Source of the DNA: a virus | Length of the DNA: 27,349 nucleotides | IMG/VR virus record: IMGVR_UViG_3300044655_001163 | Span: 1 to 27,349 of that record | Reading direction: 5' to 3' (one strand) | In this document: positions 259 to 27,100 of the stretch, piece after piece | Layout: each line of letters begins with the position of its first letter | Numbering within the stretch: position 1 is the stretch's first letter | The notes under the pieces: model-generated | What the model saw: the letters and a program-made list of their open reading frames with translations, nothing else | The model's database searches: none | Told to the model about the DNA's origin: nothing | Program-made: the position numbers and the translations under genes

Positions 259-266
259 TATTTATT
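259..266 (-). promoter_or_regulatory. Late-promoter-like AATAAATA
   Basis: On the minus strand this reads AATAAATA, fitting the NATAAATA late-promoter pattern of T4-like cyanophages (T4: TATAAATA). It overlaps the TAA stop of the 63-aa gene and ends 5 nt before the ATG of the GIY-YIG gene, which has no Shine-Dalgarno sequence. If used, the transcript would start at about the ATG. Chance occurrence in AT-rich DNA is a serious alternative. Confidence 0.35.
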
Positions 267-453
267 TCGTTGCCTTAGCAGCATTTTTCTTCTCTTGAAT
301 TTCTGCACGGCGGGCCTTAGTTAGCTTGCCTAGGTCACCTAAAGCTCCACGAGCACGAGTTCCTGCTGCGCCTACTCCTTTGCCTTCAAATTTCTCATTT
401 TCTGCTAGGTATGCATCATATGCTGCTACGATTTGTTCATGTGTTGTTGCCAT
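262..453 (-). CDS. Small basic histone H1/Hc1-like protein (63 aa)
   Basis: This 63-residue, lysine- and arginine-rich protein starts MATTHEQIVAAYDAYLAE and has the core GVGAAGTRARGALGDLGKL followed by TKARRAEIQEKKNAAK. The pattern (acidic amphipathic helix, then G-x-x-A-A-G-T-R-A-R, then a Lys/Arg/Ala-rich helix) resembles bacterial Hc1 histone H1-like proteins, where a KGNKAAGTRARK-type segment is typical. That suggests a DNA-binding or nucleoid-associated role, perhaps on phage or host DNA. The assignment rests on recalled family patterns. The start is well supported: AGGAG lies 7 bases before the ATG, in the short gap after the upstream 56-aa gene. It is the penultimate visible gene of the minus-strand cluster. 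The overlapping plus-strand frame is a shadow. Confidence 0.75.
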   Translation of the reverse strand: MATTHEQIVAAYDAYLAENEKFEGKGVGAAGTRARGALGDLGKLTKARRAEIQEKKNAAKATK

Positions 454-464
454 TTTACTTCTCC

Positions 465-635
465 TTAGTGTTGTAACATTGCTTGTTTACGAGCAATTTC
501 TTTTGAAATCTTTACTTTGTTTTTCTTTTGTTGCGTTTTTTCTAATAATGCTGTTAGTTGCGTAACGTTAAGCGGACCTAATCTAGGTTTGCCTGTACGT
601 GTCTGCATAGGATTGCCTTTCTTCTTAACTGCCAT
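465..635 (-). CDS. Small basic phage protein of unknown function (56 aa)
   Basis: The frame runs from the ATG at 635-633 to the TAA at 467-465 and encodes 56 residues, starting MAVKKKGNPMQTRTGKPRLG and continuing through LNVTQLTALLEKTQQKKNK to a basic C-terminus. It is very basic, with no cysteines and no membrane segment. The middle (LNVTQLTALLEKT) should be helical. The start is supported by an AAGGAG Shine-Dalgarno sequence overlapping the stop of the upstream radical SAM gene, and by tight spacing on both sides (9 and 11 bases). Similar RxGRPRLGPLN-type small proteins exist in T4-like phages as far as I recall, but no function is known to me. It could be a nucleic-acid-binding accessory protein; that is only a guess from charge. 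Confidence 0.7.
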   Translation of the reverse strand: MAVKKKGNPMQTRTGKPRLGPLNVTQLTALLEKTQQKKNKVKISKEIARKQAMLQH

Positions 636-644
636 AACTGCTCC

Positions 645-1661
645 TTACCATTCTGTTGCGTACGATTGATTTACCACTGCTTTATTACATTTAGTCCTAC
701 ATTCCGACCTGGAGAAAATTTCAAACTCTTCTCGCCAAAATTCGTCAGTTAAGACCTCATTTAATGATCTTTGATTAAGATCGAACTGCTTTTTGCTTAC
801 ATCTAACCACTCGTTGTTGTGTGCGTATCTATTTGCCACCCAACAGCAGGGAAACAAATGTCCTTGACTATTAACAAATAGCCCTTTATTGCCAATACTA
901 CACAACGGAGTTACTTTGCCAAACGTAATCGCTTGGTTATATAATTTTAAATTAGTTTTTGCACCAATGGTGCTTTCTCTACGTTCGTTAAAATGGGTAA
1001 ACACACGTTGAAATCTGTGGTCACTACTAATTAACTCGTCTCTAGGCTGCAGCGAGTCGCCTTCTGGGTATATACTATATACTTTATGGAACTTTGTACT
1101 TAAAGTCAACTGAAATTGATCAAATCCTAGTTCTTTAGCCAACAGCTTCATATCTTCTAGCTTATCTTGATTAAAACTAAAAGCAATGGCATCCCAGGTC
1201 ATATAAACATGGCTACTTCCACGCAAAGTAGTAATGCCTTGTATGATACTAGCCCAATCGCTGTTTACACGATACTGCTCGTTGCTGGCTTGATCCCATC
1301 CGTCTAAACTAAAGTGTACATGATCGTCTTGATCTAATGTCTGACCTAGTCTACTCCACCAATCTATATTCTTATAGCTACCATTGGTAACAATAACAAA
1401 CTTAACTGGCTTTATACTTTTAATATATTCAATGACATCTATTAGATCATGCGCATAGATAGGATCACCATCGTCACCACAGAATGTAATCTTTTCTACA
1501 TTAGACAGTATAAACTCTGGAGTAAAGTTCTTTTTAAAGAACTCTAACCGTAATTCTGTATTGACTAAAGTATCGGGCACTTCTGTGCGAGCACAACGCA
1601 GGCACTTTAATGTACACTTGCTAGATATCTCAATGTGCCAATGCCAGGTTGCTAGTTTCAT
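645..1661 (-). CDS. Radical SAM protein with C-terminal cysteine cluster
   Basis: This 338-aa protein has a radical SAM 4Fe-4S motif near the N-terminus, CTLKCLRC (Cys16, Cys20, Cys23; CX3CX2C), directly after the first beta strand. A GGEP-like turn follows as CGDDGDPIYAHD (residues 61-72). C-terminal cysteines at 254, 272, 273, 321 and 325, in the setting CSIGNKG...GHLFPCCW...CRTKC, resemble the SPASM/twitch region that binds auxiliary Fe-S clusters in peptide- or protein-modifying radical SAM enzymes. The substrate is unknown. The ATG overlaps the end of gene 46 by 4 bases (ATGA), so translation is probably coupled to it, and the 56-aa gene starts 9 bases after the stop. Membership of the superfamily is clear; the subfamily is not, and tRNA, protein and peptide substrates are all possible. 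Confidence 0.88.
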   Translation of the reverse strand: MKLATWHWHIEISSKCTLKCLRCARTEVPDTLVNTELRLEFFKKNFTPEFILSNVEKITFCGDDGDPIYAHDLIDVIEYIKSIKPVKFVIVTNGSYKNIDWWSRLGQTLDQDDHVHFSLDGWDQASNEQYRVNSDWASIIQGITTLRGSSHVYMTWDAIAFSFNQDKLEDMKLLAKELGFDQFQLTLSTKFHKVYSIYPEGDSLQPRDELISSDHRFQRVFTHFNERRESTIGAKTNLKLYNQAITFGKVTPLCSIGNKGLFVNSQGHLFPCCWVANRYAHNNEWLDVSKKQFDLNQRSLNEVLTDEFWREEFEIFSRSECRTKCNKAVVNQSYATEW

Positions 1662-3430
1662 TTTACTTCTACATCATTGTTATAGGTTGTAAACCCATTT
1701 TCTTTTACCACAGTTAAAATATTGTTCACACGACCAGCAAGTTCATCTTTATGCGACACTAACCAAATAGATTTGTTATTCTCTCTAGTCATTTTCTTAA
1801 GGATAGCTAAGGCATTTTCAACACCTGAAGTATCCATGCCCGAATCGACGAGCTCATCAATAAACAATAAGTTAATTGGTTGATATAAACTTTCCCATAC
1901 ATCACGGAATGCCCATGACAAGCTAAGGATAAGTCTATTACGTTCACCACGGCTCAAGTTATCAAAGTCTAACTCTCGTCCCAGTTCTTGTATTTCTACA
2001 CTTAGATCGTTTAGGAACTTAACAGAGTGCGGTAAGCCAATCTTATCTAAGTAGTATCCTAGGCGTGCGTTTAAGTAGCTTAGGTTTTGGTCAATAATAC
2101 GTTTACGTATAAATGAATCTTTGTTTGTTAATAGTTTCAATAAAAACTCTTGATGCTCTTTAACACGCATTAGTTTATTCATTACAGCATAATCAATTTC
2201 AGCCAGGGCTGTGGTCTTCATTTCCTCAATCTGTTCATCGTAAGGATCAGTTTCGGCAATCTTACCTGCTAATTGCCCTTGCAAACTCGCCACAGTACTA
2301 CGGTGATGGATTGCATCTTCTTCTTTATCGTAGAATACTTTTGGTTGTTGACCTAATTCACCTAATTCTTGTTTAGCTATTGTTAACGCTTGTAGATCTG
2401 TTTCGTGCTGGGTATGCAACGTTTGTACTTCACGTAAGCTGATTTCTTTAACTCCTAACATCTCTGAGTGCTTGTCGTCGTGTAGATCTTGTCCACAGCT
2501 ACTACATTTATGATCTCGCAGTAACGCAATGTCGGCTTCTACCTTCTGTATATTTTTAGTTTCGCGGGTTAGGTCTTGATCAGCACGCAGTATCGCCTTA
2601 TCTAAGTCGGCAATGTCTTTACGTGTTTGATTGTAAGTAGTCAATGCCTTGTGTGCTGCAATTTCTGTATCAATATCAAGCTCTAATAAATTATCTAGTG
2701 CAGTTTGTAGTTTGCTTACATCTTCTGTGTGTTTGGTAGTCCACAAGTTTTGTCGACGTTTTAGGCTCTCAATTTGCTCTTGAATACGGCCATTTGCGTC
2801 AGTTATGGCCTTAATATTGAACTCTTCTTGCTGAATTGCATCCTTAGTAGCCTTACCCTGCTCTTTCAGCGAATCTGCCTTTTCACTTAATAATGTAATA
2901 CCAAGTAGTTGTTCGATAATAGTACGTTGATCGTTGGCCTTAAGACTTAAGAACGGCTCAGTGTAGGTATTAAGTGCTACAATATGTTTAAACATATCAT
3001 GGCTCATACCTAGCAAGCGTTCAATTTCGGCTTGCGTTTCACGGCTATCGCCTTGGCTGTTATCATCCTTGGCTTCTTGTTCTTGTTCGCCGATATAGAA
3101 TTTAAGTACATTTGACTTACGACCGCGTTCGATACGATAACTTTCTCCATTCACTTCGAAGTCGATGGTAACCAACATGCCTTTGGCATTAGTTTTATTA
3201 ATTAAGTTATCTTTTTTAATATTTGTAAGTGCTGTGCCATATAAGCCGTACGACAATGCGTTAATGATAGTAGTCTTGCCTGTACCATTGCGTGCCCCGC
3301 TGTCGTCTCCACCTAAGTCAATGTTCTCGCCTAAGACCAAAGTTAGGTCTTGACGATCAAACTCAACGGCTTGTGTAGCATTGCCCACGCTCATAAAGTT
3401 GCGTACTGTTAAATTCTTTATTTTAAACAT
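1658..3430 (-). CDS. 46: Recombination endonuclease subunit gp46 (SbcC/Rad50-like ATPase)
   Basis: A 590-aa SMC-type ATPase and the Rad50 counterpart of the gp46-gp47 complex, which resects double-strand ends for recombination-dependent replication in T4. The motifs appear in the right order: Walker A in GARNGTGKTT (residues 45-54), a long coiled coil with the zinc hook CSSCG (Cys309, Cys312), a coiled-coil return, the ABC signature LSRGERNR (492-499), Walker B LLFIDE (521-526) and the H-loop in WLVSHKDE (His560). Length is close to T4 gp46 (560 aa). Its start overlaps the preceding radical SAM gene by 8 bases and its end overlaps the next radical SAM gene by 4, so it sits between two radical SAM genes. 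Nothing suggests inactivation. This identification is very secure. Confidence 0.97.
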   Translation of the reverse strand: MFKIKNLTVRNFMSVGNATQAVEFDRQDLTLVLGENIDLGGDDSGARNGTGKTTIINALSYGLYGTALTNIKKDNLINKTNAKGMLVTIDFEVNGESYRIERGRKSNVLKFYIGEQEQEAKDDNSQGDSRETQAEIERLLGMSHDMFKHIVALNTYTEPFLSLKANDQRTIIEQLLGITLLSEKADSLKEQGKATKDAIQQEEFNIKAITDANGRIQEQIESLKRRQNLWTTKHTEDVSKLQTALDNLLELDIDTEIAAHKALTTYNQTRKDIADLDKAILRADQDLTRETKNIQKVEADIALLRDHKCSSCGQDLHDDKHSEMLGVKEISLREVQTLHTQHETDLQALTIAKQELGELGQQPKVFYDKEEDAIHHRSTVASLQGQLAGKIAETDPYDEQIEEMKTTALAEIDYAVMNKLMRVKEHQEFLLKLLTNKDSFIRKRIIDQNLSYLNARLGYYLDKIGLPHSVKFLNDLSVEIQELGRELDFDNLSRGERNRLILSLSWAFRDVWESLYQPINLLFIDELVDSGMDTSGVENALAILKKMTRENNKSIWLVSHKDELAGRVNNILTVVKENGFTTYNNDVEVK

Positions 3431-4946
3431 AAGATCTCAAATTTATATACTCGGGAAATACTTCTTCAAACTTTTCGCAGCGATAAGTGTCTTGCATATC
3501 ATTGGATTTAAAAAAATTACCCAATAAATGACTTTGGTCACAAGCATACATATATTGTAACACATCCTTCCACGATGATACAAGATGTTCTGCATCAGAA
3601 ATACTCTCTAACCAATTGATATGATCTAAAATATATTTCTCTGCTTGATCTTTGTATTTTTTTGGTAATACTTGTACATTCATATTATCTGGAATAATCA
3701 TTATACGAAAAGATAGTGCTTTTGCTGGTAGTTGATGTACAGTAATCCACCGATGTTGCAATTTTGGTAAATTAAAAATATTAAGCATATGAACAATGCT
3801 GTTTATTTCAAAATCTACATAATCTTTTACTAGACTATAATTTTTCTCAATATCATCATAGTTAGTTCCGTGTCTTACATAGCCAGCTTGCTTTCCTATT
3901 AGATCAATACTAGCACGAAATATTACGGTACTAAATTGTTTCCAATATTCAATAATATTAAAATTTTTATATGTTAACACTGTAAAATTAGAATTATATG
4001 ACAGCGGTACATCGGTACGTTGATGTTTAATTAATAAATCTAATACTTGATAGTGTTCCGCCATGATCAACGGCTCACCACCAGCAAAATGCACAATATC
4101 TAAATTTGGTATATTATCTTCAACAAATTCTAAAGTATTTTTAAGTTCGGTGGATGATAATTTTAATTCGATAAATTTATTATCGCCAAACAGGGCTGCG
4201 TTCTCGTGTGCAATCCGACTACTATAAGTACTTCCACACATTTTACATTTTAAATTGCAAATATTTGAAAGCCGAATATCTAAATAACGCAATTTAAATT
4301 CTGAAAAAGTACCATCAGGTTTAGTTAGATTAGTTAAATTTTTATAATTTCCCCATTGAGCATTAACTTTTTGCCTACCTGATAAGAGCCCTGCATCTTC
4401 GTTTTTCCAGCACGCTGAACAACTGTCCGGACGTTGGTTTGACAGCATCTGTCTTCTAACTTTTCTCATATTCTCATTATTAGCTATATCAGATAACGGA
4501 CCGTCGGATATATTTCCTAGTGCAAATTTCTCATCAAACTCGCAACATGTGCCCACTTTGCCTTGGGGATTTACAAATACGTGTATCCATGGATACAAGC
4601 ACAACGAGTTAACAGTTGATAGTTGTCGATCAAATACTCCGCCGATAGATTGAATCCTAATATCGTTCTCAAACGGTGCAAAAACATTTTTTGCTAGGTT
4701 AAGTTCGTTGATAATATTTAAATTATTGGTATGTATTATTACAAAAAAATTAGGTATGTCTAACATTGTTAGATATTCTTGTAATTTTAATAAAGACTCA
4801 CCCGCAGTATCGCTGTTTTTATATCGATCGCCGGTGTATCTAATATCTAATGTATAGTTGGTAGGAAATGTATCTAATTTTTCTCTAGATAATACATTGT
4901 ATAACCAGTTATCGCCATTGGTGAGATATTCTGATAAGTTAATCAA
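3423..4946 (-). CDS. Twitch/SPASM-type radical SAM protein, TTG start
   Basis: This 507-aa protein has its radical SAM motif in the middle: CNLKCKMC (Cys230, Cys234, Cys237), followed by a perfect GGEP at 289-292. Before it lies a cysteine-rich module, SLCLYPWIHVFVNPQGKVG (Cys116), then CC (134-135) and CSAC (Cys176, Cys179), like the SPASM/twitch Fe-S domain but placed N-terminally. Such proteins occur in environmental T4-like phages as 'twitch domain-containing radical SAM protein'; their substrate is unknown to me. The start codon is TTG, immediately abutting the TAA of gene 47 (TAATTG). The next in-frame ATG is codon 61, so TTG is likely and implies coupled translation. It overlaps gene 46 by 8 bases. 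It is AT-richer than its neighbours (sampled 60-base lines hold 16-21 G+C, against 25-29 in gene 46), which suggests later acquisition. Confidence 0.88.
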   Translation of the reverse strand: MINLSEYLTNGDNWLYNVLSREKLDTFPTNYTLDIRYTGDRYKNSDTAGESLLKLQEYLTMLDIPNFFVIIHTNNLNIINELNLAKNVFAPFENDIRIQSIGGVFDRQLSTVNSLCLYPWIHVFVNPQGKVGTCCEFDEKFALGNISDGPLSDIANNENMRKVRRQMLSNQRPDSCSACWKNEDAGLLSGRQKVNAQWGNYKNLTNLTKPDGTFSEFKLRYLDIRLSNICNLKCKMCGSTYSSRIAHENAALFGDNKFIELKLSSTELKNTLEFVEDNIPNLDIVHFAGGEPLIMAEHYQVLDLLIKHQRTDVPLSYNSNFTVLTYKNFNIIEYWKQFSTVIFRASIDLIGKQAGYVRHGTNYDDIEKNYSLVKDYVDFEINSIVHMLNIFNLPKLQHRWITVHQLPAKALSFRIMIIPDNMNVQVLPKKYKDQAEKYILDHINWLESISDAEHLVSSWKDVLQYMYACDQSHLLGNFFKSNDMQDTYRCEKFEEVFPEYINLRSYV

Positions 4947-5963
4947 TTATAGATGCCTGTATATATCTAATAGCAAGTTGGGATCATAATGTTCACTGTT
5001 AATATTAGTCAATTGGTTAGTAACAATGGTATCGATGCTTTCGAATTGAATGTTACCTAGTTGTATATCTTGACCAATGTCCATGTTTTTAACAGGGATT
5101 AATGTAAGTTCACGTAGGTTATAAGTGCCCACAAATGTTTCTTTAATAAACGTAGCTTCTTCATAGGTGATATCGATGTCGATATTAACACGACAGTGCA
5201 TCTGCGGTAGTAATAATGTTTCTGGTGTACGTAATACATCGCTTAATCCATAGACACGATACTTAGGTTGATTAGGCCACGCTTTGAATACAGGGTCTTC
5301 GCCCCAGGTAAGTATCATCATACCGCGATCGTCGTCGCCGGCGTCCGCGTAGTTGTGCGGGAAAGCATTGCCAATGTAGGTAATGTTCTTATTAGTTTGA
5401 CGTTTATGGAAGTGTCCGCTAAACATACGATCCACGTGCCCAAAGTGCTCACCACGTAATTCGCCATGCTCTGGCATCTGTACCATAGCATTCATAAAGA
5501 AGTGTGGCAACTCAAAATGGCCAAACATATACTTGGCATTGATCTTAGGAATCTTTTTGTAGTCGTCGCCCACTAGCCAAGGCACAATACTAACATCACC
5601 TTCGCTGTAGAAATCATTTACAATTTCAATATTAGGAATATGTCTAGCCCACTCAGCTGACTGTATATCACGTTTATCTCTATAGTACAGGTCGTGATTA
5701 CCTGGAATAAAGATAACGCGGTCAAAGGCCTTGCCTAACAACTCTAAAGCTGTTAGGCTGTAATTTAAAGTAACGATGTTAATAGCCGCCCTGTTGTTAT
5801 GCCAGTCACCTAGCATAAAACAAGTATCGCACCCTTCTGCCTTTGCTTCTTCAATAAACCACTTAACAAAGTTTAAACAATCATCATTGTGTAGCTGACT
5901 GTTAGACTTTAAGCCAAAGTGAATGTCTGTCAGAACTGCTGCTTTTTTAAATAAATTTGCCAT
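4947..5963 (-). CDS. 47: Recombination endonuclease subunit gp47 (SbcD/Mre11-like)
   Basis: A 338-aa calcineurin-like metallophosphoesterase, the nuclease partner of gp46. The conserved metal-binding blocks are all present: DIH (Asp13, His15), LGDWH (Asp53), GNHD (residues 88-91), GHFE (His149) and SGHFHKRQ (His184, His186). Length matches T4 gp47 (339 aa). In T4 the gp46-gp47 complex trims DNA ends to produce single-stranded DNA for UvsX. The gene follows gp55 after 52 bases and directly abuts the TTG-started radical SAM gene. No Shine-Dalgarno sequence is obvious before the ATG. A TATACT hexamer lies 6 bases upstream of the start codon and might be a host-type -10 element, but no good -35 element is seen, so I do not annotate it. 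Confidence 0.96.
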   Translation of the reverse strand: MANLFKKAAVLTDIHFGLKSNSQLHNDDCLNFVKWFIEEAKAEGCDTCFMLGDWHNNRAAINIVTLNYSLTALELLGKAFDRVIFIPGNHDLYYRDKRDIQSAEWARHIPNIEIVNDFYSEGDVSIVPWLVGDDYKKIPKINAKYMFGHFELPHFFMNAMVQMPEHGELRGEHFGHVDRMFSGHFHKRQTNKNITYIGNAFPHNYADAGDDDRGMMILTWGEDPVFKAWPNQPKYRVYGLSDVLRTPETLLLPQMHCRVNIDIDITYEEATFIKETFVGTYNLRELTLIPVKNMDIGQDIQLGNIQFESIDTIVTNQLTNINSEHYDPNLLLDIYRHL

Positions 5964-6015: not shown

Positions 6016-6921
6016 TTACTCGTCAGCACCCCAACCACCGCCACCACCCCAATCACCCTGGCGAGTGTAGCTTGGTGTGTAATTGTTCATCTCTAAGATA
6101 TCGTCACGAATGTTTTGATTGCGCTTCTCAATGTTTAGAACACGTGTAAAGCTATTAGTAATGGCCGCTGTATAATAAGCAAATGGATTTTGTGATTTAG
6201 CTTCATCAAACTGTAGGCCAATCTGCGATAGTTGCAGTAATGCTTGACTACGCATTTCATCGTTATAGGTATAACCGCGCCAGTTGCTACGAGTAGCATA
6301 GCGTTCACATAGTTTAATAAACATGTGTGCGAGCTTGTTAGTCATGTTGCCGTGGTCTTTGCTAAACTTGCCTTTTTCTAAATCGCCCTTCCAGTGGCTT
6401 TTACCTACTAGATAAGGTTTATTATCTACGTCAACCTTATAATGTTGGAACGGAGGGAAATTGCACTTAGTATATTTTGCAGGTGCTTTAACCTGCATGC
6501 TAGGATCATCGTACTCTGTTTCAAACGTATCGTCATCTTCCATCTCTTCTCGAAGTTTGTCGTCTGCTTTCTTTTGTTTAGCTTCATCAATTGGTATATG
6601 ATCCCAAGTCATAACCCGAAATACTACGTCTGTGCTTGGGGTATCTTTTAAAGGAGCAGCATATTCATCTAACTTCTTTTTAATGCCGTTTAATAAATCA
6701 ACTTCTTGGGCTTCTTTTGCCAGTCGTTCTATACGTGAACTGCGAGCTTCTGCAATGATTTTCCTAGTAATTTTGTCAGTACCGTAGATAATCATGTCGT
6801 AGTCTTTATAGCTAGGGTCTATGTAACTACAAAATGTTGACTTACTTTTATGAATTTCCTTTAGAATATCTTTATTATTTAAATAGTTAACTTTACGAAT
6901 TTTGATTCCCCTTATTTTCAT
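6016..6921 (-). CDS. 55: Late-transcription sigma factor gp55
   Basis: The C-terminal half (MTNKLAHMFIKLCERYAT, NWRGYTYNDEMRSQALLQ, QNPFAYYTAAITNSFTRV, LNIEKRNQNIRDD) matches the conserved sigma region 2-like core of gp55 in T4-like phages; gp55 directs host RNA polymerase to late promoters. The N-terminus (KVNYLNNKDILKEI) lines up with T4 gp55 (KYNYVNNKELLQAI). At about 301 aa it is much longer than T4 gp55 (185 aa) because of an acidic, Lys-rich insertion between those parts. The tail ends GDWGGGGGWGADE, with no T4-like DFLYE clamp-binding motif. The start given is the ATG at 6921-6919, inside the end of the homing endonuclease gene. The ancestral start position is seven codons further in, where an ATT (6900-6898) follows AAGGGG at good spacing. 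The true start is uncertain; the identity is not. Confidence 0.92.
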   Translation of the reverse strand: MKIRGIKIRKVNYLNNKDILKEIHKSKSTFCSYIDPSYKDYDMIIYGTDKITRKIIAEARSSRIERLAKEAQEVDLLNGIKKKLDEYAAPLKDTPSTDVVFRVMTWDHIPIDEAKQKKADDKLREEMEDDDTFETEYDDPSMQVKAPAKYTKCNFPPFQHYKVDVDNKPYLVGKSHWKGDLEKGKFSKDHGNMTNKLAHMFIKLCERYATRSNWRGYTYNDEMRSQALLQLSQIGLQFDEAKSQNPFAYYTAAITNSFTRVLNIEKRNQNIRDDILEMNNYTPSYTRQGDWGGGGGWGADE

Positions 6922-7546
6922 ATGCTGCTCTTCTGGCAGCAGACCAAGGTTTTCCTCGGTGCACCTTACCAATATTTTCTCTATGCTGATTGCTGAATGG
7001 CGCTTTGGGCTTTCCTATTAGTGTCTTGCTAATATGTTCCTTGTGCTTGGCGGATAATGATCTACCTTTTGCTATGTTGGACATTTTTTCCTTAGTCTCC
7101 ACTGATCGTTTCTTACCGCTATTTGCTGAACTAATTTTTTGTTTAGTCTCTGCACTCAACGGAGTTCTTATTCTATTTTTTGCCGCTATAGATCTCTTTA
7201 ATTTAGTTTCTAAAGACTCGTTTCTTTTAGCATACGCTAATTTTTCTCTAGTTGCAAGAGAAGGATTACTAATACCTTCTCCGCTATTGGTTCTATTATG
7301 TAAAATGCCAGTACCTAAATCTTTTCTACCGTATTTTGCAATTAACTCTATTTCTAAATTGTGTGCTTGTTGTTCTGTTAAATTTTGTTTAATAAATGTG
7401 ATATTTGATCTGTCTTTAGGAAGAGGAGCATAATGTTTAACATACGCTCTATTTCCGGTGCCTTTGCCTATATAATACGGTGTGCCTGATTTATCCGTGG
7501 AAGAATCTTTACTTCTAAGATAGGCATAAACATAAAAGTTCTGCAT
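6893..7546 (-). CDS. GIY-YIG homing endonuclease with NUMOD3 repeats
   Basis: This 217-aa protein has an N-terminal GIY-YIG nuclease domain: FYVYAYL, then PYYIGKGTGNRAY (YIG at 25-27, probable catalytic Arg33), AHNLEIELIAKYG (candidate catalytic Glu65 or Glu67) and ILHNRTNSGEG. The C-terminal half is a string of roughly five or six degenerate NUMOD3 units (S-x-E-T-K-x-K-x-S-x-A-x-x-G-K type), such as PLSAETKQKISSANSGKK, which bind DNA in group I intron and free-standing homing endonucleases like the T4 Seg proteins. It appears intact. It lies upstream of gene 55 and overlaps the chosen gp55 start by 29 bases. A fragment of a second gp55 5' end lies just upstream, so it seems inserted at the start of gene 55. 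A perfect TATAAATA lies 16 bases before the ATG and AAGGA supplies the ribosome site. Confidence 0.93.
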   Translation of the reverse strand: MQNFYVYAYLRSKDSSTDKSGTPYYIGKGTGNRAYVKHYAPLPKDRSNITFIKQNLTEQQAHNLEIELIAKYGRKDLGTGILHNRTNSGEGISNPSLATREKLAYAKRNESLETKLKRSIAAKNRIRTPLSAETKQKISSANSGKKRSVETKEKMSNIAKGRSLSAKHKEHISKTLIGKPKAPFSNQHRENIGKVHRGKPWSAARRAAYENKGNQNS

Positions 7547-7562
7547 AACAATCCTTTTATAT

Positions 7563-7570
7563 TATTTATA
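7563..7570 (-). promoter_or_regulatory. T4-type late promoter TATAAATA before homing endonuclease
   Basis: The minus strand reads TATAAATA, the exact T4 late-promoter -10 octamer recognised by gp55-bound RNA polymerase. Its 3' end is 16 bases from the endonuclease ATG, so a transcript starting 6-7 bases downstream would carry a short leader with the AAAAGGATT ribosome site. Late promoters before phage homing endonucleases are known (I-TevI). The setting is strong, but an octamer alone is weak evidence in AT-rich DNA. Confidence 0.6.
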
Positions 7571-9040: not shown

Positions 9041-12000
9041 ATGGATAATCGAATCACGTCACTAACCCCAGCCACACGAGCCCTGGCTCAACAGCTCATT
9101 GACGCTTGTGCTGCTGCAGGGGTGCCAATCAAACTTACCAGCACACTAAGAACTGTAGCAGAACAAGATGCGTTATATGCACAAGGCCGTACCGCACCTG
9201 GGCAGATTGTTACAAATCTTAAAGGTGGTCAGGGAATACACGAAACAGGACAAGCCTTTGACGTTATACCTGTAAATGGTGGATATCATGCTTCACAAGC
9301 AACCTGGGATAAGATTGGTTCCATTGGTGAAGGTTTAGGGTTAGAGTGGGGCGGGAACTGGAAGGGCTTTAAGGATTTACCGCACTTCCAATTACAAGGT
9401 GCAAAACCCGGCAGGCCGTCACCGGGCTCGGCCCCAAGTGCGCAGCCTAGCTTAAGTGGAGTGCCCTGGACTGGGCCAATACCGTCTGAATCAGATAACG
9501 TTGATAGAGCAACTCCTGGCACCGATATTTTTATAGTGCAAAATGCGCCACCAATACCTAATAGACTACATCGATATGCCAGTTATATCTATTCTTTAAG
9601 TCTACACATGATGACCAATGAAGAATACGACAATTTAGTTGTAACGCAGGAATACTCGGCTAAAAATGTCATTATAGCCAGTGCAGGGCGCCACAGTGCT
9701 AATTTCCAACGTAATAAAAATTGGATCGAAGATTTCTATTTTGAAAACTTCAGCATGAAGACTATCATAAGTCCCAATGACGAATCAGGTAATACAAACG
9801 CCATTAGCTGCAATTTTGAAATTATAGAACCATATGGCTTTACAATGGTTGAACGAATTATCAAAACTACTGAAGATTTAGGTGGTAGTAATTACCTTGA
9901 CATGCCCTATCTAGTACAGATTGATTTTTTTGCTATCGACGACGCCGGAGAAATTACCGGTGCGGTTCCGGAATTACAGAAACGTTTTCCGATTAAACTT
10001 AATAAATTAGGCATTAGAATTACAGAACGTGGCGCTGTATACGACTTTAGAGCATCACCATACGGTCACGCAGCATTTGAAAGCACTACAGTGACGGTAC
10101 CAGCCAATATGGAAGTAACATCACGAACTATAGTTGATTTCTTTAAAAGCAGTGAAGACACATCCGTTGGTGGCCTTAATCAAGCCATTCAGCAGTTTGA
10201 CACGAATCAGCGAGAATCGACCTCTCCATCTACGGGTACACCTGCAACGCTTAATGCTGACTCGTTTGGCACTGCTATTAATGCCTATTACAAAGGGTTA
10301 AAAGACGCAGGCAAAATAGCCATAGCAGATGTATATCGTTTTGAATTCTTACCCGACCCCGACACAGGGCAAGATATCTTAGGAACAGCAACGTTTATAG
10401 AAGATAAACGTAATACTCCTAAAGAAACCCCAATGAAGAAAAACGAAAGCATTAAAGATGCTGTCAGCATGAGAATGGCCGATATCGGCAGTAGTCAAAA
10501 CACATACGATACTAGTAGGGGTATTTTTAGTATTAATTATGGCACAACAATTGACAAATTATTAGAATATGTAATACGTAACAGTTCTTATATCCACGAC
10601 CAATTGGTATTACCTGATGGTATATCCAATGAAGAATACAAAGCCCGCAAGGACGCGATGAAAGATAAGCCACTTAAATGGTTTAGAATTATTCCTAAGG
10701 TAAGACCACTGGGCTTTGATAAAATAAGAAAAATACAAGCTAAAGAAGTAACCTACACTGTTAAGCCTTATAAGATGTATAACTTACGTAGCGATATTGC
10801 GCCGCAAGGAACAGTAGTTACACCAGTTAAGGCATACAACTATTTCTTTACAGGAAAGAATAGCGATATCATTCATTTAGATATTGTGTTTAATACATTA
10901 TATTATACTCAACAAACTGCCTATAGAAGTAGCATGGCCAGCCAAAATCCCACAGGCGATAGTATTACTACAAACTATGAATTTCAAAATGCTCCTAACT
11001 ATTCGGGAGGCGATGCGCCTAAAGGTATTAACTATGACGCAGTAATGCCTCTAGTAATGAAACCTGTTGTGCAAAACTCTAAAGCAGTGGCCACTGGCAA
11101 TCCAAGTACTGCTAAAGAAGTCGGTGCAGCTGACCTAGCAGATAGTATTATGAGTAGTAGTGAAGCAGACATGCTTAGAGTAAAGATGACCATCATTGGT
11201 GATCCCGACTATATTAAACAAGACGATATATTTTACGGTGCAGACACATCAAATTCTTTAAGAGTTAGTTCAGAAATTGACAAGCGTTTGTTGCCTGATG
11301 GTGGCAGTCTTGTGATGGATGACGGTAGTTTATACGTACAAGTATTGTTTAAGGTTCCTAGAGATATAGACGACAGCACAGGCTTTATGAAATATGATGC
11401 AGGTGAGCGAAATAGTGTGTTTAGCGGATTGTATCAAGTGCTTAGTGTAACTAGTACATTTGCCAAAGGACAATTTACTCAAGAGCTCACGATGACCAGA
11501 ATACCAAGACAGGTAGCATTTGATTATGTAAGTAGAAATAACAATCAATCGGCAGAACGTCCTGGCTCAGCTACTGTAGCTGCAACCCCAGTGCAACAAG
11601 CACCTAACCCACCCACGACAGATACTGCCACAGCAACTGACACAGCCGGAGATCAAATTCCAGGGCAAGAACAAGCGGCACCCATAGCAAATAACACCGA
11701 AGCTGCACCATCTACACAACAACAAGATTTAGCGGCAGTTAGGGCCGCCGGAGTTGCAACAGATATTAACAATCAAAATGCTCCAGTTGCAGTGTCACCG
11801 CTGCCAGTTCCGACCGAAGCAGATAATAATGCACAGTTCTTGGGTAAAGCAAAAGTAATAGCACAACAAGTTAAAGATCTAGTAATGCAACGCGATAGTG
11901 TTTATAACTCGTATAGATCTACCGATAGCGGACTGACCAGAGTCGAAGATCAGTTGATTGCTGATGACCCGGCCAATGCTGATTTGAGTGAAAAAGAACT

Positions 12001-12229
12001 AGCAGCCAAATCACAAGAATATGCTACATTGTTAGCAAGAAAACAAAATCTACTAGCACAACAAAAATCGCTAAATCAACAAATAGTAGATACAGCAAAC
12101 TCAATCCCGGCGCTAGGGTTTAGTATGAATGCAACAATTCAGTCTAGTGTGCAGTTTAACACCACAGCAAGAGGTCCTAACCCATCAATTGTTGTTGGCG
12201 GACAAACAATATTAGAGCAACAATATTAG
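9041..12229 (+). CDS. Baseplate hub protein with N-terminal M15 (VanY-like) peptidase domain
   Basis: A 1062-aa fusion. Residues 1-120 form an M15 (L-alanyl-D-glutamate/VanY type) peptidase with STLRT (Arg37), zinc ligands His67 and Asp74 in GIHETGQAFDV, LEWGGNW (102-107), and Asp112/His115 in KDLPHFQL, spaced like the catalytic Asp and third zinc ligand of the T5 endolysin. A Pro/Ser/Gly linker follows. The large middle (from about 160 to 820) contains RLHRYASYIYSLSLHMM, NYLDMPYLVQIDFFAIDDAG and similar blocks that I recall from baseplate hub/structural proteins of marine T4-like phages. Then comes a Pro/Ala/Thr/Gln-rich spacer (about 830-930) and a C-terminal coiled coil (about 934-1023). 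It probably sits at the hub and cuts peptidoglycan stem peptides during infection. All M15 catalytic residues seem present. The exact T4 equivalent (gp27-like?) is uncertain. Confidence 0.82.
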   Translation: MDNRITSLTPATRALAQQLIDACAAAGVPIKLTSTLRTVAEQDALYAQGRTAPGQIVTNLKGGQGIHETGQAFDVIPVNGGYHASQATWDKIGSIGEGLGLEWGGNWKGFKDLPHFQLQGAKPGRPSPGSAPSAQPSLSGVPWTGPIPSESDNVDRATPGTDIFIVQNAPPIPNRLHRYASYIYSLSLHMMTNEEYDNLVVTQEYSAKNVIIASAGRHSANFQRNKNWIEDFYFENFSMKTIISPNDESGNTNAISCNFEIIEPYGFTMVERIIKTTEDLGGSNYLDMPYLVQIDFFAIDDAGEITGAVPELQKRFPIKLNKLGIRITERGAVYDFRASPYGHAAFESTTVTVPANMEVTSRTIVDFFKSSEDTSVGGLNQAIQQFDTNQRESTSPSTGTPATLNADSFGTAINAYYKGLKDAGKIAIADVYRFEFLPDPDTGQDILGTATFIEDKRNTPKETPMKKNESIKDAVSMRMADIGSSQNTYDTSRGIFSINYGTTIDKLLEYVIRNSSYIHDQLVLPDGISNEEYKARKDAMKDKPLKWFRIIPKVRPLGFDKIRKIQAKEVTYTVKPYKMYNLRSDIAPQGTVVTPVKAYNYFFTGKNSDIIHLDIVFNTLYYTQQTAYRSSMASQNPTGDSITTNYEFQNAPNYSGGDAPKGINYDAVMPLVMKPVVQNSKAVATGNPSTAKEVGAADLADSIMSSSEADMLRVKMTIIGDPDYIKQDDIFYGADTSNSLRVSSEIDKRLLPDGGSLVMDDGSLYVQVLFKVPRDIDDSTGFMKYDAGERNSVFSGLYQVLSVTSTFAKGQFTQELTMTRIPRQVAFDYVSRNNNQSAERPGSATVAATPVQQAPNPPTTDTATATDTAGDQIPGQEQAAPIANNTEAAPSTQQQDLAAVRAAGVATDINNQNAPVAVSPLPVPTEADNNAQFLGKAKVIAQQVKDLVMQRDSVYNSYRSTDSGLTRVEDQLIADDPANADLSEKELAAKSQEYATLLARKQNLLAQQKSLNQQIVDTANSIPALGFSMNATIQSSVQFNTTARGPNPSIVVGGQTILEQQY

Positions 12230-18166: not shown

Positions 18167-21100
18167 ATGGCAACAAGAAAAACCTATAAATTTTTACCTA
18201 CCGTATTCCAAAGTGATGCTAATAAGAAATTCTTAGCCGCTACAATGGATCAGTTAGTAACTGAACCAAACTTAGAGACGCTTTATGGATATATTGGTCG
18301 TAAATTCGCCCCTACATATAAAACTGGTGATAGTTATGTTGTTGAATACAACTCGACTAGACAGAATTATCAGCTAGAGCCGGGGGTTGTAATCAAAGAT
18401 GAACAAAACAATGTTATCTTTGTTGCTGACTATATTGATCTATTAGATAAAATTGGATATTATGGTGGATTAACAAATAATCACAGTCGTTTATTTGAAC
18501 AAGATTATTATACGTTTGATCCTAGGATTAGTTTTGACAAATTAATTAATTTTAGTCAATACTATTGGCTACCAGATGGACCTGACCCGGTTGATGTAAA
18601 CACCAGCGGGGTTGATTTAACGATTACCTACACCGTGACACGTGATGCTGCTAACGGTCGTTATATATTTAGAAACAACGGTGTTGTTGATAACAGTATT
18701 ATTTGTGCCCGCGGCGGAGTTTATGAGTTTGTAGTTGACCAACCGGGTGTGCCGTTTTGGATTCAAACAGAGACTGGTATAGACGGTGTAGTTAGTGCTA
18801 CTCCTACCTTAAGTTCACGCGATGTATTTGGCGTAGAAAATAACGGTGCTGATAACGGTATAGTAACATTCAAAGTACCACAAACCTACGCACAAGATCG
18901 TTATGTCAATATGCCTACTGTGTTTAGTGTAGACTATGCTACTCCTATCCCGTACAGTCAGCTAGCTAATAAAACATTAAGCCAATTTTTAACCGCATAT
19001 CCACAATATGCAGGTATCACAGGTCGACTAAACGGCAGATATACTATATTTGTTGATGTTAACACGTGGACAAATGCAGGCGAAGACGCCTGGACTAATC
19101 CTGTAGTAGTTGATAATGATGGCGATATTATTCCGGGGTACGATGCCAATGCGGTCATTGCTGAAGAAGATCGTTATGACATATGGCGTGTGGTTTATGT
19201 TGACATTGGTCAAAAATTACGTTTAGATACACCTATTGCTGCAAATATTATTGCTGGTACAAGTTTAACAGTGGGGAGTCAGATAGTATCATTGTTATAT
19301 GACGCAACTGTAGGTCAAGAATATGTTTATGTTCCTGATACTATTACTATATCAGCTAATGCAACTATAAAACGTACAGATGTCATAACTGCACTGTCTG
19401 CAACTGCATCTGGTACTAACGAGATCACTGTTACGACTACAACCGGCTTGGTAGCAGGCATGCCTGTGATATTTGTTGGAAACCCAGCAGTGGGGGGAAT
19501 AATTTCAGGTACTACTTACTATATTAAAGATGTTACTTCAGTAACAACATTTACAATCAGCGACACGGTTAGTGGAAGTGAATTTATCTTAACCAACGGC
19601 ACAGGAGTAATGAATGTAACAGCGTCGTATACAGATATTGCCAGCGGCACCATAGTTACAAGTATTGCATCCGGTGATCCGTTACTTAAACTGATTCATA
19701 CACAGGACGTAGCAGTTGATGAGAAAGTTTATGTCAAACTTGGCATTGCAAATGCTAATAAAGAATTTTTTAAAGATTACGATGGCTTCTTTGCTACAGT
19801 TCCGTTATTAACCTCACAAAATAATCAATTATGGATTCAAGATGGACTGTCACCACGCATCTACACCCCAATCAAAGTTATACAATATTCTGGGTGGACT
19901 ATTGACGTAGAGACTGATATCATCGGACAACAATACTATACTAGTCCCAACGGTATTGAATTTACATCAGGCCTTAAAGTACAATTTGGTGACGACGTAA
20001 CTCCTGCATATTATCAAAATCGTCAATTTTATGTTGAACAAGTTGGTGATATTGGTGGTGGCACCCAACTAGTGCCCGTCGACGAACTGATAACTCCAGA
20101 ATCATATATCGACGAGATTGCAGTAAATTACCCGGGTGAATATTTTCCTGATTACATCACAATCAATCGTTCTAGTCGTGAGCGCAACGCCTGGGCACGA
20201 AACAATCGATGGTTCCATGTTGATGTAATTACCGCTACAGCGACCTACAATGGTACTATTCCAACCTTTAGTAATGGTATTCGTGGTCAGCGTCCTATTG
20301 TACAATTTGAATCTAATATGCAATTAGTCAATGACGGTAGAGTTGCAAAGGCGCCAATTGGCATATTAGACACGACTATTCAGAATGCATTCGTCGACCT
20401 ACAAGGTAAAACATATACTAGTGTATTTGGCATTGAATTATTTGACAGCAACGGAGATATTGTCTACCCAAATGGGCTACGTGTAATTTTTGGTAACGAT
20501 ACTGACTCGTTAGTTAAAAATAAAATTTATCTATTGACTTTAGTTCAATATAGTCTAAACTCATTACAATTACCCTCGGGTCCATATTACATCGAACTTA
20601 CAAAAGCAGTTGATGGTGATGTTAGTGCTTACGATACCACAGTGGTTAAACTTGGAATTAATAAAGGTAGCCAATGGTGGTTTGATGGGGTCAATTGGAA
20701 TCGTAGCCAACAAAAAGAATATCTACAACAACCGCCGCTGTTTGATGTATTAGACAGCAAATTAAATCTTAGTACCGGGCAGGTTGTGCAAGGCAAGAGC
20801 TTGGGCCAATATACCCGTAGCACATTTATAGGCACACAGATATTCGGCTATGATCGTGCCACATCAGGTACCACAGATACTGTATTAAGTAGAGGTCCGG
20901 TTGCACCCATATTCGATGCAAACGGTAATGCTATTACTAACTTCTATTTAAGTTATAAAAACTTTACAACCCAAGGTGATATTAAATTTCAAAATTTCTT
21001 TAATACAGATACCTTTAGTTATGTAGATGATTCCGGTAAGATTGTATCACAGAATATTAATTTAGGATATGTTCAAAAAATTATAGATAGCCAAACATTG

Positions 21101-24100
21101 GAGCCAAAGAATACATGGCTAACAGTGCCTGAGCAAAGTAAACAATATCAATTATTCAGCTTTGTTTATACAGAACCATCAGACCCTGATAATTATCTAA
21201 ACATCAACGGCTATACTGACACATTTACCTTAGACATTACACCAGTAAGTGATGAACAATCTATTCCTTATGTAAAAGTATTCCGAAATTTTGTATATTT
21301 AAAACCTACAACTGAATGGACAATTATAGGTAATCAAATTACTATTAACATTACATTAAATATCAACGATCAAATTGATATTTTAGTGTATAGTAACGAA
21401 ATAAGTTCTACTGCATTTTATCAAGTTCCACAAAACTTAGATTTAAATTCACAGAACACGGATATTAACAGTTTAACACTAGGACAATTACGTAACCATT
21501 TAGTGGCATTGGCTCAAAACAGTACCATCGTTGAGGGTGACGTACTAGCACAAAGTAACCTACGTGACATTGACATTAAACAACAAGGTGGTACTATTCT
21601 TAAACATAGTGCACCTGTGCCATACGCAAGTTTATTCTTAATCGATGACCAGGCTAATTTTATTAATAGTGTTCGTTATACACAACAAGAATACACTAAA
21701 TTTAAAAACAAATTCTTAGAATTAAGCACTAGTCTCGAAGGCATTGACCCAACTGACCCTATAGGCAGCGTTGATACGATTTTAACAAGAATTAATCTTG
21801 TTAAAAATAAATCATTCTCTTGGTATTACAGTGACATGGTACCTTACGGTCCGTTAAAAAATATTGTCGGACAAATAGGAGCAATCGACGGATTTGAAGT
21901 ATTTGACCCGTTAAAGACAAATTACGAAATTACAAATATTTTCAATGATACAAAACTGAGCAATCAGGCAGTATTGGTATATTTAAACGATCAGCAACTC
22001 ATTAAAGGCATTGACTACAACTTTAGAACAGATACTCCAAGTATTGATTTTAATATTACCTTAACAGTTGGCGACATTATTAAAATTGTTGAATACAGTA
22101 ACACCGATGGCAACTATGTTCCGGAAACTCCAACTAAACTCGGATTATGGCCTAGTTATACTCCGGAAATCTTTGTAGATGACACATATAGAACGCCTAC
22201 TACAGTTATTCGCGGGCATGACGGCAGTATTACTCCTAGTTTCAACGACTATCGCGATAACTTCTTGTTAGAATTAGAACTACGTATCTATAACAATATC
22301 AAGTTATCTGCTAATACAACATTTAGCGACATTTTTAGTGTAATTCCTGGTAAATTTAGATCTAGTGATTACACCTTAGCAGAATCAAATCAAATATTCA
22401 GTCAAAGTTTCTTAAACTGGGTTGGCAATAACAAACTTGATTATACTGTTAATGATACTTTTGACCCTAATGATCCGTTTACTTGGAACTATCGTGCAAG
22501 CCGTGATCGAGTGGATGGTGAATTATTACCGGGTAGTTGGCGTGCTTGTTATATGTACTTCTATGATACATATCGCCCGCAGTTAACACCGTGGGAAATG
22601 CTAGGATTTGCTAGTATGCCGGCCTGGTGGCAAGGCTTCTATGGCCCTGCACCGTACACTGGCGCAAATAAAGTTTTATGGGATGACTTAGAAGCAGGGT
22701 ACATCCGTTACGGTGATCGTCAAGGTATAGACCTAAATTATGCTCGCCCAGGACTATCGGGATTTATTCCTGTCGATGAAAATGGTAATTTAATTAGTGT
22801 GGCACAATTACTATGCCGCACATTTAATAACAAGCAATCGGGGGCTGCATGGGCAATCGGCCAACAAGGTCCTGTAGAATTTGCATGGCGTATGAGCAGT
22901 GACTTTCCATTTGCTGCTCAACAGGCATTGGCGTTATTAAAACCAGCTAAGTATTTCGGTACATTGATTGATGTAAACTCTTACACACCATTGAACGCAT
23001 TGTATAGTCGCTCGACTGATGTGCAGGGTATTACAACAGAAACTACTCAGTATCTTGAAGACAGTACAAATAGACAGATTACACAGTCAGCGGTTGACTA
23101 TAACGGTGATACTAGTTCCGGTACTGTTTATCGCGGCGCAGGATATATCAACTGGATTACTGAATATTTGATTAACCAAGGCGTTAGTCCAGTAAAATAT
23201 CTATTACCGTTAATACAAAACTTCCAAGTAAATTTAACCTATAAGGTGAGTGGATTCACAGATCAGAAATATTTAGAGGTATTGGCTGAACAAGTCAGTC
23301 CAACAAGTACCAATGATAGTATTCTTATACCCAATGAAAACTATAAAATATTCTTAAATGAAAAACCAGTGGCCATAGATGAAATCATTTACAGTGCGCT
23401 TATTATTGAGAAAACAACCAACGGTTACAGTATACGCGGTTATGATTTGTTTAACAGTTACTTTACAATCATACCAAGTATCGTAAACAACAACGTTAGC
23501 AAAATTAAAGTATTAAACAGTACAGCTACGATCTATAATGATTATCAAAATCTATTAATGAATGTACCTTACGGCTACGAGTTTAATACACAACAACAAG
23601 TAGTTGATTTTATGATCAGCTACGAACGCTATCTAATAGCACAAGGATGGACATTTACTGACAGTGATCCTCAATTGAACGAAATTAAGAATTGGCGTTT
23701 GAGCGCACGTGAGTTCTTATATTGGGCACAACAAGGGTGGAAGCCGGGCAGCATATTAGTTGTAAGTCCAGTTTCGAATACATTAAATGCTATTACTAGC
23801 GGCGCAGTGACAGAGGGTATTGAAGATAGTCAATACGGCAGCAGAGTAGTCGACCAAAACTTTAATCTTATTAAGAACAATAATTATGCAGTATATAGAA
23901 CACCTACGGAGTTTAAACTAGAACTACAAGATGCAGCTAGTGTTATTGGTTATGTAAAAGTTGCCTTGGTACAATATGAACACACATTAATATTTGACAA
24001 TACCACAGTGTTCAATGATGTTATCTATCAACCAAGCAGCGGTAACCGCCAGTTCCGTTTAAAACTAATTGGTCAACGTACAGCAGATTGGGACGGCAGT

Positions 24101-27100
24101 CTAAGTCCAGAAGGCTATGTATATAATAGCGGCGCAGTAGATGCATGGTACCAAGGTCAAGATTATCTTAAAGGTGATCTAGTACAATACAAGAGTCAAT
24201 ATTATACTGCTCTTCAAGATATTCCTGCTAATGAAACATTCCAGTTCCAAATTTGGCAGGTATTAGGCAAGAACGAAATACAAACAGGTCTATTGCCTAA
24301 TTTTAGCACAATTGCTGTAGAAAGTCAATCATTTTATGATAGTTATGCTAAGATACGTAACAAAAATCAAATGGCCTACAGTCATGCACTTATTGGCTTT
24401 AGAGAACGTCAATACCTTAGTGATTTAGGTCTAACAGAAACAACACAAATTGAATTCTACAAAGGGTATGTAGCGCAAAAAGGTACTAAGAATGCAGTTG
24501 ATGCATTTACCAAAGCGACTATTAACAACTTAACTAGTAACATTGCACTATATGAAGAGTGGGCAGTGCGTGTTGGTGAATACGGTGCCCTAACTAGTAA
24601 CCCGTTTGTTGAAATTGCTTTAGATGAAAAAGCATTTGGCGTAAATCCTAGTGTGGCAAGTTTCGTAGATGCGGCTGATAATAATCTAGCCAATGGAATT
24701 ACAGTATTCAACAGTACACAATTGTACAAATCATACGGTGCGTATTCTGCAAACGTTGCTTTAAATAGAACTGAAAACAGCGACTATGACAACGACATTC
24801 CCACAGCGGGATATGTAAACATTGACGACGTTAACTTACAAATCTTTGACTTGACAAATTATGTTGACTTGGATAATAAGATTGCAGATATGGGCAGTGG
24901 TTACCTAATTTGGGTAGCTAAAGACTTTACGCAAGATTGGAATGTATTTCGTGTAACAGAAACTAACAATCAGATCACCGCAGTGACAAATAGTCTAAAT
25001 GGATATATTACATTTACTACAGATAATCCACACGGTCTTTCTAAATATGATATATTCTTAGTTAAGAATTTTGACGCAGCCTACAACGGCTTCTATCAAA
25101 TATTACGTGTAACCGGAGCATCGAGTCTTTTGGTAAGATATACAGGTGATATTACTAACCTAGGTAACTTAACCACTCAGACTGGTAGTGGTATGTTATT
25201 TCGGTTAGATAGTATGCGCTTCAAATACATGGAAGATAGTCGTGTATACGGCCTAAGCAACCCGCCCAATGGATGGAAAGTTGGCGATAAGATTTGGATA
25301 GACGATGATGCAGAAACTACCTCAGTACAAGGTCAACCATATGGCACACAACCTAGCGGTACATGGAAGGTATATGAAAAACAAACGCCGTGGAATTTAG
25401 ATCAAGAAGTAACCAAAGGTGGCAGTGAATACGTACCCAATGATGGATTTGGCACAGCAGTAAAAATGTCAGCAGATGGATTAATTATTGTTGCTGGCGC
25501 CGCGCAACAAGGACAGATTCAATTTACCACAACAGGATACTTAAATGCCAATGTAGGTGCGTATATTGAGCAAGTAACTTCAGGGGCTAACTTAACTTTG
25601 GTTGGCAACCTAGGCGGTAATCTCTATGCAGGGCAATACAACAACAATCAGATATTTGACGCAGTTGGAAATCTGTCAGTGCTTTCTATAGATACTGGTG
25701 CTAAATTTGTATCATCTATTACACGTGTTGGATATGTAAATACCTTCCTTAAAAATTATTCAGGTGATTTTGATGCAGGACTCACGCTCAATCCAACTGC
25801 TGCAAACACTTACGCATACGGTCATTCGGTAGAATTAGCAACCACAGCCGCAGGTGATACTAAAGTGGCAATTGGTGCACCTAGTAGTTGGTCCGGCAAT
25901 GGCTACGTATATATCTATGACAAAATATTATCGAGCTACTCGTTTGATCGTGGCCAAATTCTTGTAAGTAATGTTACCGGAGACCAATTTGGTTACAGCC
26001 TAGCATTTAACCAGACTGGTGAATGGTTATATGTAAGTGCACCGGGCAATAACAGCGTATATGCCTACGGGTTACAACGGTATGTTCCGGTACAAACTCA
26101 ACTTGCATCTGTTAATAACAAAAATACTATATATTTAAATAGCCCTATTTCAGCTAATCCAACAGATGTACTAATACAAGCAAATACTGGTGCAAGAACT
26201 TCTATTCTTAGTGTAGTTTCTAGCACAGAAATTGTTGTTGATAATATTACAAATTTTGTAAACGCACCGACAAGTACAGACGGCAATGTACTTGTTGGTA
26301 ATTTAACTATACTTGCTAATATTAGTGTTTTAAGTAGCGGTAATTTAATAACATACAGTGCTTACCCAATTAATCTAATAAGCAATGCCGCAGTAAGCAG
26401 CATTCAAATAAATTCATTTACACCGGACTTTACTTCGGGTAGTGATGCAAATAGTTTATTAATTACTAACTTAGATAAAACATTTATTCCTTACGTTGAT
26501 TATGTATTTGACTATAGCACACGCACAGTTAATTTTATTAATAACGGTAACGTTGCTAGCCCGGCTAATATTTCAGCCACCACAGTTACTATCACACAAC
26601 GTCCTTACTATGCACTAGTGCAAAAATTAACTGTGCCTACTGGTAATAGTTGGGCACAGTTTGGTTATGCTATTTCATCAAGTTTTGATGGCGCACAGGT
26701 GGCTATTGGTGCTCCCGGTGACACTGTTTTGGACGGTAACGATATATTACAACGAGGTGCAGGTGCTGTTTATGTGTACGATCGTGTCATTGAAGCATTT
26801 AATTCAGTTACCGATGCAGTAACTGGCACCGGCGGTCAAGACTACACTACTGAAAATAACATTGCAACTGTACATAAAGTTACCATTGACGGTGTCGAAA
26901 ACACAGCATACACTGTGGTGGGCACTAATACAATTAGATTTACTAATCCGCCTGTAATAGGGCAGGTTATTCTTATTGAGGTTAATAAATTTAACTACCT
27001 AGAACGCCTAATTGGTGTGGATAGTTTAACAGGTGGGTTGGCTGCAATTCAAGCAAACGCTGCGTTTGGTACAAGTTTAACAATTTGTAGTAATAACTGT

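Follow-up and report, generated by a model that had tools for sequence, protein, structure and literature searches.

Radical SAM genes in a cargo slot around genes 47 and 46 of T4-like phages, with a possible role in surface or sugar tailoring

Introduction

The IMG/VR virus record IMGVR_UViG_3300044655_001163, a whole virus contig of 27,349 bases whose completeness is not established (hereafter the window), encodes two radical S-adenosylmethionine (SAM) enzymes, here called rS1 and rS2, that are interleaved with genes 47 and 46 for the Mre11- and Rad50-like subunits of a recombination nuclease. T4 is not known to carry such radical SAM genes. The arrangement raises the question of whether the enzymes work with the nuclease or whether the locus is used as a site for cargo genes, both of which had been considered in a first-pass annotation of this DNA. 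We are confident that the stretch running from gene 55 through genes 47 and 46 to a SegE-like gene is a translationally coupled cargo slot in a large group of environmental T4-like phages. Combined with the proposal that the enzymes serve a surface- or sugar-tailoring system, with gp46 and gp47 as bystanders, this forms a reading to which we assign a probability of about 0.5.

Results

Genes in the window follow the order 55, 47, rS1, 46, rS2, two small genes and a GIY-YIG gene, every one on the minus strand (Table 1). The tight coupling pointed out in the first-pass annotation can be read directly from the sequence: the TTG start codon of rS1 abuts the TAA stop codon of gp47, rS1 and gp46 overlap by 8 bases (3423–3430, ATGTTTAA), and gp46 and rS2 overlap by 4 bases (1658–1661, ATGA). 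This order is not a chance arrangement, because a second contig (L001) repeats it at 100% identity and a relative with 72–75% nucleotide identity (L012) has the identical gene order. The TTG start of rS1 is supported by L012, which has TTG at the same spot right behind the gp47 stop.

Related loci, which were not dereplicated, were gathered with rS2, rS1 and gp46 as separate queries, the gp46-picked set being unbiased with respect to radical SAM content. Two close relatives (L003 and L004) have an empty site between genes 47 and 46, where the gp47 stop is fused to the gp46 start as TAATG and the DNA on both sides is 83–86% identical to that of the window. Elsewhere the same site holds an SGNH-like gene (L005), a different radical SAM gene (L014) or 2.9 kb of sequence (L208), and in further phages an epimerase (L155), an AMP-binding enzyme or other radical SAM genes. 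From gene 55 to the GIY-YIG gene, 329 of the 331 open reading frames (ORFs) in the cargo are co-directional, and the GIY-YIG gene forms the right border of the zone in relatives, the gene at this position in L044 matching SegE_GIY-YIG. Variable content between conserved core genes, together with empty sites, is what characterises a T4-like hot spot, and the suggestion that the locus is a cargo site was thus upheld. Foreign genes lie exactly at the stop/start junctions between core genes, and can therefore be co-transcribed and co-translated without harm to genes 47 or 46.

With the zone taken to run from the sigma-55 gene to a point 4 kb beyond gene 46, 26 of 46 evaluable gp46-picked loci contain one or more radical SAM genes, and 13 contain two or more. 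In a survey of 24 gp46-picked contigs for Pfam Radical_SAM matches, 18 fell within 196 kb of zone sequence (0.092 per kb) and 90 within the 1874 kb outside it (0.048 per kb), 56 of these 90 lying in tandem arrays; outside the arrays, density fell to 0.018 per kb. The zone is thus enriched 1.9-fold over all outside sequence (Poisson P 0.018) and 5-fold over non-array sequence. Given this enrichment, and radical SAM genes throughout the genome (3–21 per long contig), the zone is best described as a preferred secondary site in radical SAM-rich phages. A random scatter with no linkage to genes 46 and 47, which would have undone the first-pass proposal, is therefore found only in part: the superfamily is indeed scattered, but the zone is about twice as dense as the rest.

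The main site is a tandem array of 4–6 radical SAM genes, typically five, found in 10 of 11 gp46-picked contigs of at least 64 kb. A phylogenetic tree sorts its genes into five orthologous clades, which are found again in different phages. The upstream side of the array has tail-fibre genes (phrog_19602), two mutually related families that share DxD-like motifs, and a further family, of which the L245 member matches Glycos_transf_2 (glycosyltransferase family 2-like, E 0.0013). On the downstream side are SGNH-like genes, carbamoyltransferases and a conserved protein of 357 aa. Profile searches against solved structures matched the SGNH-like family to a GDSL lipase (E 6e-4) and returned nothing useful for three array neighbours (A1, A2 and A3). 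An epimerase adjoining the array in L237 has kin in the 47–46 slot of L155, and array-neighbour families more generally recur in the 46/47 slots. In the cultured phages Atu_ph07 and Phosso, too, radical SAM genes neighbour genes for tail fibres or virion proteins. A genome scan with a tight alignment turned up 15 relatives; their surroundings were mixed, and some probably lie on phage contigs within metagenome-assembled genomes. Two array proteins (L241:2092-4041 and L243:6990-8939) carry an N-terminal fusion of about 200 aa that includes the sequence FYPGAGGNRY or FYLGAGGNRY and may be a P-loop or sulfotransferase-like domain.

Both enzymes in the window belong to the Radical_SAM superfamily, which is marked by a CX3CX2C motif in a partial TIM barrel. 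Their CX3CX2C motifs are invariant in alignments and their folds match radical SAM structures (E 4e-6 and 3e-10 for rS1 and rS2), with Pfam Radical_SAM scores slightly under the curated cut-off. All catalytic and auxiliary cysteines are present and conserved, and the number of auxiliary cysteines in each protein fits one auxiliary cluster of the SPASM/twitch kind; cysteine positions agree with the earlier observation that these clusters sit at opposite ends, at the N-terminus of rS1 and the C-terminus of rS2. Each enzyme is thus predicted from its sequence to hold two 4Fe-4S clusters, one catalytic and one auxiliary. The fold matches span BlsE, viperin and peptide maturases alike, a spread that singles out no substrate.

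rS1 is a full-length member of the N_Twi_rSAM family (NF033640; 356.4 bits, curated cut-off 170), set apart by an additional N-terminal alpha/beta domain of about 105 residues (about 1–105). Behind this domain, a Pfam SPASM match (residues 116–180, 49.5 bits) contains the auxiliary-cluster cysteines 116/134/135/176/179, N-terminal to the core with C230/C234/C237 and GGEP at 289; a profile built from rS1 and its relatives aligns its N-terminal part to the auxiliary domain of BtrN, and the structure model has a predicted local distance difference test (pLDDT) score of 88.4. Roughly half of the slot enzymes at 55–47 and 47–46 share the N-terminal domain, as does one clear array member (L239); these counts hinge on ORF start calls. 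Near-identical rS1 was found only in L001, with relatives at the same place in L012 (57%) and L210 (42–43%). In the tree, rS1 groups with its counterparts in L012 and L210 as sister to array clade 3, the third array gene (support 0.999). Other slot enzymes are placed close to array clade 4 or elsewhere, so that the slot holds several enzyme lineages. rS1 therefore looks like a fairly recent arrival among the cargo, most closely akin to the third-gene copies of the five-gene array.

rS2 lies outside N_Twi_rSAM (31.3 bits against the cut-off of 170) and has no equivalog-level match to the viperin_w_prok model (26.3 bits against 180). It matches Pfam Radical_SAM over residues 10–151 (27.3 bits, just below the 29.5 cut-off) and SPASM over residues 254–325 (21.7 bits, cut-off 21.5), with core cysteines 16/20/23, auxiliary cysteines 254/272/273/321/325, and CGDDGDP where rS1 has GGEP. 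By these scores we class it as a radical SAM/SPASM-like protein that belongs to no specific family. Its structure model (pLDDT 85.5) has a core fold nearest to the solved structures of BlsE and viperin, a resemblance only, at ~16–18% identity and a TM-score of ~0.45–0.55 on the query. The gene is under strong purifying selection, with a ratio of nonsynonymous to synonymous substitution rates (dN/dS) of 0.06–0.09 by a simple Nei–Gojobori (NG86) estimate, as for gp46. Gene 46 lies just upstream in all 79 evaluable rS2 loci, and 76 of these abut gene 46, some through a tandem paralogue of ~297 aa. Conversely, only 10 of 55 evaluable gp46-picked loci contain an rS2 ortholog. The co-occurrence with genes 46 and 47 proposed for survey in the first-pass annotation thus holds strictly for rS2 with respect to gene 46, and only in part for the superfamily, which is scattered but denser in the zone. 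rS2 appears to be an older, stable resident of the slot after gene 46. At nine loci (for example L213:9761-11457 and L190:9360-11056), the position after gene 46 holds an rS2-like gene (~41% identical to rS2) in coupling with a gene for a short-chain dehydrogenase.

Table 1 Genes of the cargo zone in the window, with the matches that identify them.
Feature	Position	Strand	Evidence
GIY-YIG/NUMOD3 homing-endonuclease-like gene, operon head	6893..7546	-	Pfam NUMOD3 E 1.3e-4; phrog_314 homing endonuclease E 4e-10
Late sigma factor (gp55-like), left border of cargo zone	6016..6972	-	phrog_12791 E 9e-84
gp47 (SbcD/Mre11-like nuclease subunit)	4947..5963	-	phrog_100 E 2e-60; Metallophos
rS1, radical SAM, N-terminal auxiliary cluster, 507 aa	3423..4946	-	NF033640 356 bits; cysteines; model
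gp46 (SbcC/Rad50-like subunit)	1658..3430	-	phrog_77 E 2e-100
rS2, radical SAM, C-terminal auxiliary cluster, 338 aa	645..1661	-	Pfam; alignment of 25 relatives; cysteines; model
56-aa basic protein	465..635	-	no family match
63-aa basic protein, histone H1-like Hc1 motif	262..453	-	PF07432 E 7e-10
GIY-YIG protein, truncated by contig end	2..253	-	phrog_7363 homing endonuclease E 6e-12

Discussion

What, then, might the enzymes do? We propose that rS1 and rS2 cleave SAM and abstract hydrogen from a small-molecule or sugar-like substrate, and that they would serve the same system as the radical SAM array. The probable task of this system is to make or tailor a modification on the surface of the virion or the envelope of the host, because the array adjoins genes for tail fibres, a sugar-nucleotide epimerase, carbamoyltransferases, an SGNH-like esterase and a probable glycosyltransferase. 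The position of the array beside tail-fibre and sugar-enzyme genes, together with the sister relationship of rS1 to an array gene, makes a surface or sugar system a likelier destination than recombination; taken by itself, such a role for rS1 and rS2 falls somewhat short of an even chance. Several observations weigh against it. The folds also match peptide maturases, and several array genes are assigned as glycosyltransferases from motifs. The array is known from relatives, the window itself covering only 27 kb; a Paenibacillus N_Twi relative lies in an apparent ketosynthase/acyl-carrier operon and not in a glycan cluster; and the strict tie between rS2 and gene 46 could mean more than shared ancestry.

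A functional partnership with the gp46/gp47 nuclease, in which the enzymes would for example modify the nuclease or DNA ends, is suggested by translational coupling and by the constant position of rS2 behind gene 46. We consider it very improbable, since many gp46 loci lack rS2, or radical SAM genes altogether, the other occupants of the slot are enzymes of unrelated kinds, PA5oct, a cultured relative, shows a compact 55-47-46 and no radical SAM match was detected in its genome, and the phages that have radical SAM genes in the slot keep an array elsewhere. The functional link entertained in the first-pass annotation was accordingly rejected on the locus survey. Hardly any credence can be given to homing-endonuclease-driven insertions without retained function: GIY-YIG genes do stand at both ends of the zone, but the catalytic motifs are intact, rS2 is under purifying selection and the stop/start fusion is exact.

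Two further readings concern the substrate. If rS1 and rS2 made or tailored a modified phage base, their location in a replication/recombination operon would be explained, and we regard this DNA hypermodification as an unlikely alternative. The T4 alpha-glucosyltransferase (AGT) for modified DNA lies in the 55-47 interval, and the same slot in Phosso holds a glycosyltransferase whose similarity to DNA-sugar transferases is weak (PF20691, E 0.026; phrog_842, E 0.012). An hhalign comparison of two array families with this protein found nothing. A search for T4 AGT gave no match, a silence that is uninformative as it had no positive control. The nearest folds to rS2, BlsE and viperin, act on nucleosides or nucleotides, and thymidylate-synthase-family genes occur in 7 of 15 long records; they are missing in the other 8, though these are often fragments, and the main array adjoins tail-fibre genes. 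We judge improbable a modification of the kind found in ribosomally synthesised and post-translationally modified peptides (RiPPs), with a small protein, for instance the neighbouring 56- or 63-aa one or a tail-fibre peptide, as substrate. SPASM/twitch radical SAM enzymes are often peptide maturases, the fold matches include a sactipeptide maturase (5why), SkfB, SuiB and anSME, and an Atu_ph07 array enzyme scores weakly against the DynA/PapB maturases; however, no maturase family model was matched at its cut-off, and the cysteines of rS1 and rS2 suffice for one auxiliary cluster each. The two small genes, put forward earlier with weak support as encoding candidate partners or substrates, are found in loci that lack rS2, just as rS2 is found in loci that lack them (Fisher P 0.60 and 1.0 for the pair), so neither qualifies as a linked precursor peptide, which leaves room for other peptides. 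As dedicated substrates, the small proteins were rejected.

Radical SAM-rich T4-like phages are already known. A 183-kb T4-like environmental viral genome has 12 radical SAM genes (PMC5332604, mSphere 2017), the passages of that paper on these genomes mentioning neither a placement at genes 46/47 nor a conserved array on the tail-fibre side, and Campylobacter relatives of T4 carry radical SAM genes as well (PMC3322345). In the T4-like pelagimyophages, radical SAM cassettes lie with glycosyltransferases in a hypervariable tail-fibre region, and the authors favour host O-chain modification for the glycosyltransferases (PMC7029224, mSystems 2020); in the phages described here, such genes are also found in the recombination operon. 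Cyanophages have a hot spot adjoining gp46 with different cargo, radical SAM genes not being mentioned in the passages that describe it (PMC3037559, Environ Microbiol 2010). A search of open-access papers found neither a description of radical SAM genes occupying the 46/47 slot nor one of the conserved array of five genes.

Should rS1, rS2 and their array kin act on tail fibres or on sugars of the surface, as the surface-tailoring reading holds, complex radical chemistry would take place at the phage–host interface. It is possible, if doubtful, that a conserved multi-step radical pathway, comprising five N-twitch enzymes, sugar enzymes beside the tail fibre and the members at genes 46/47, makes a tail-protein or host-glycan modification new to viruses. 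An odd gene order thereby becomes a testable system, with up to 21 radical SAM genes per contig, an array and a second cargo site. The locus also cautions that tight operon coupling alone is a poor guide to function.

Other features of the window

The 63-aa Hc1-motif protein occurs in many relatives with varied cargo content. Promoter and terminator scans gave little above shuffled sequence. A T4 late-promoter-like element, TATAAATA (7563–7570), lies 17 bases upstream of the first gene of the operon and is the sole copy in the window, though five would be expected by chance. This first gene, GIY-YIG/NUMOD3, is 97% identical in L005 and L006 and overlaps the start of the sigma-55 gene, whose start is more likely to be an in-frame ATG at 6921 than the TTG at 6972. 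Beyond the operon, the window encodes a virion-like protein of 1062 aa (9041–12229) that begins with an M15/VanY peptidase domain, and an ORF of at least 3061 aa (18167–27349) that runs off the contig end.

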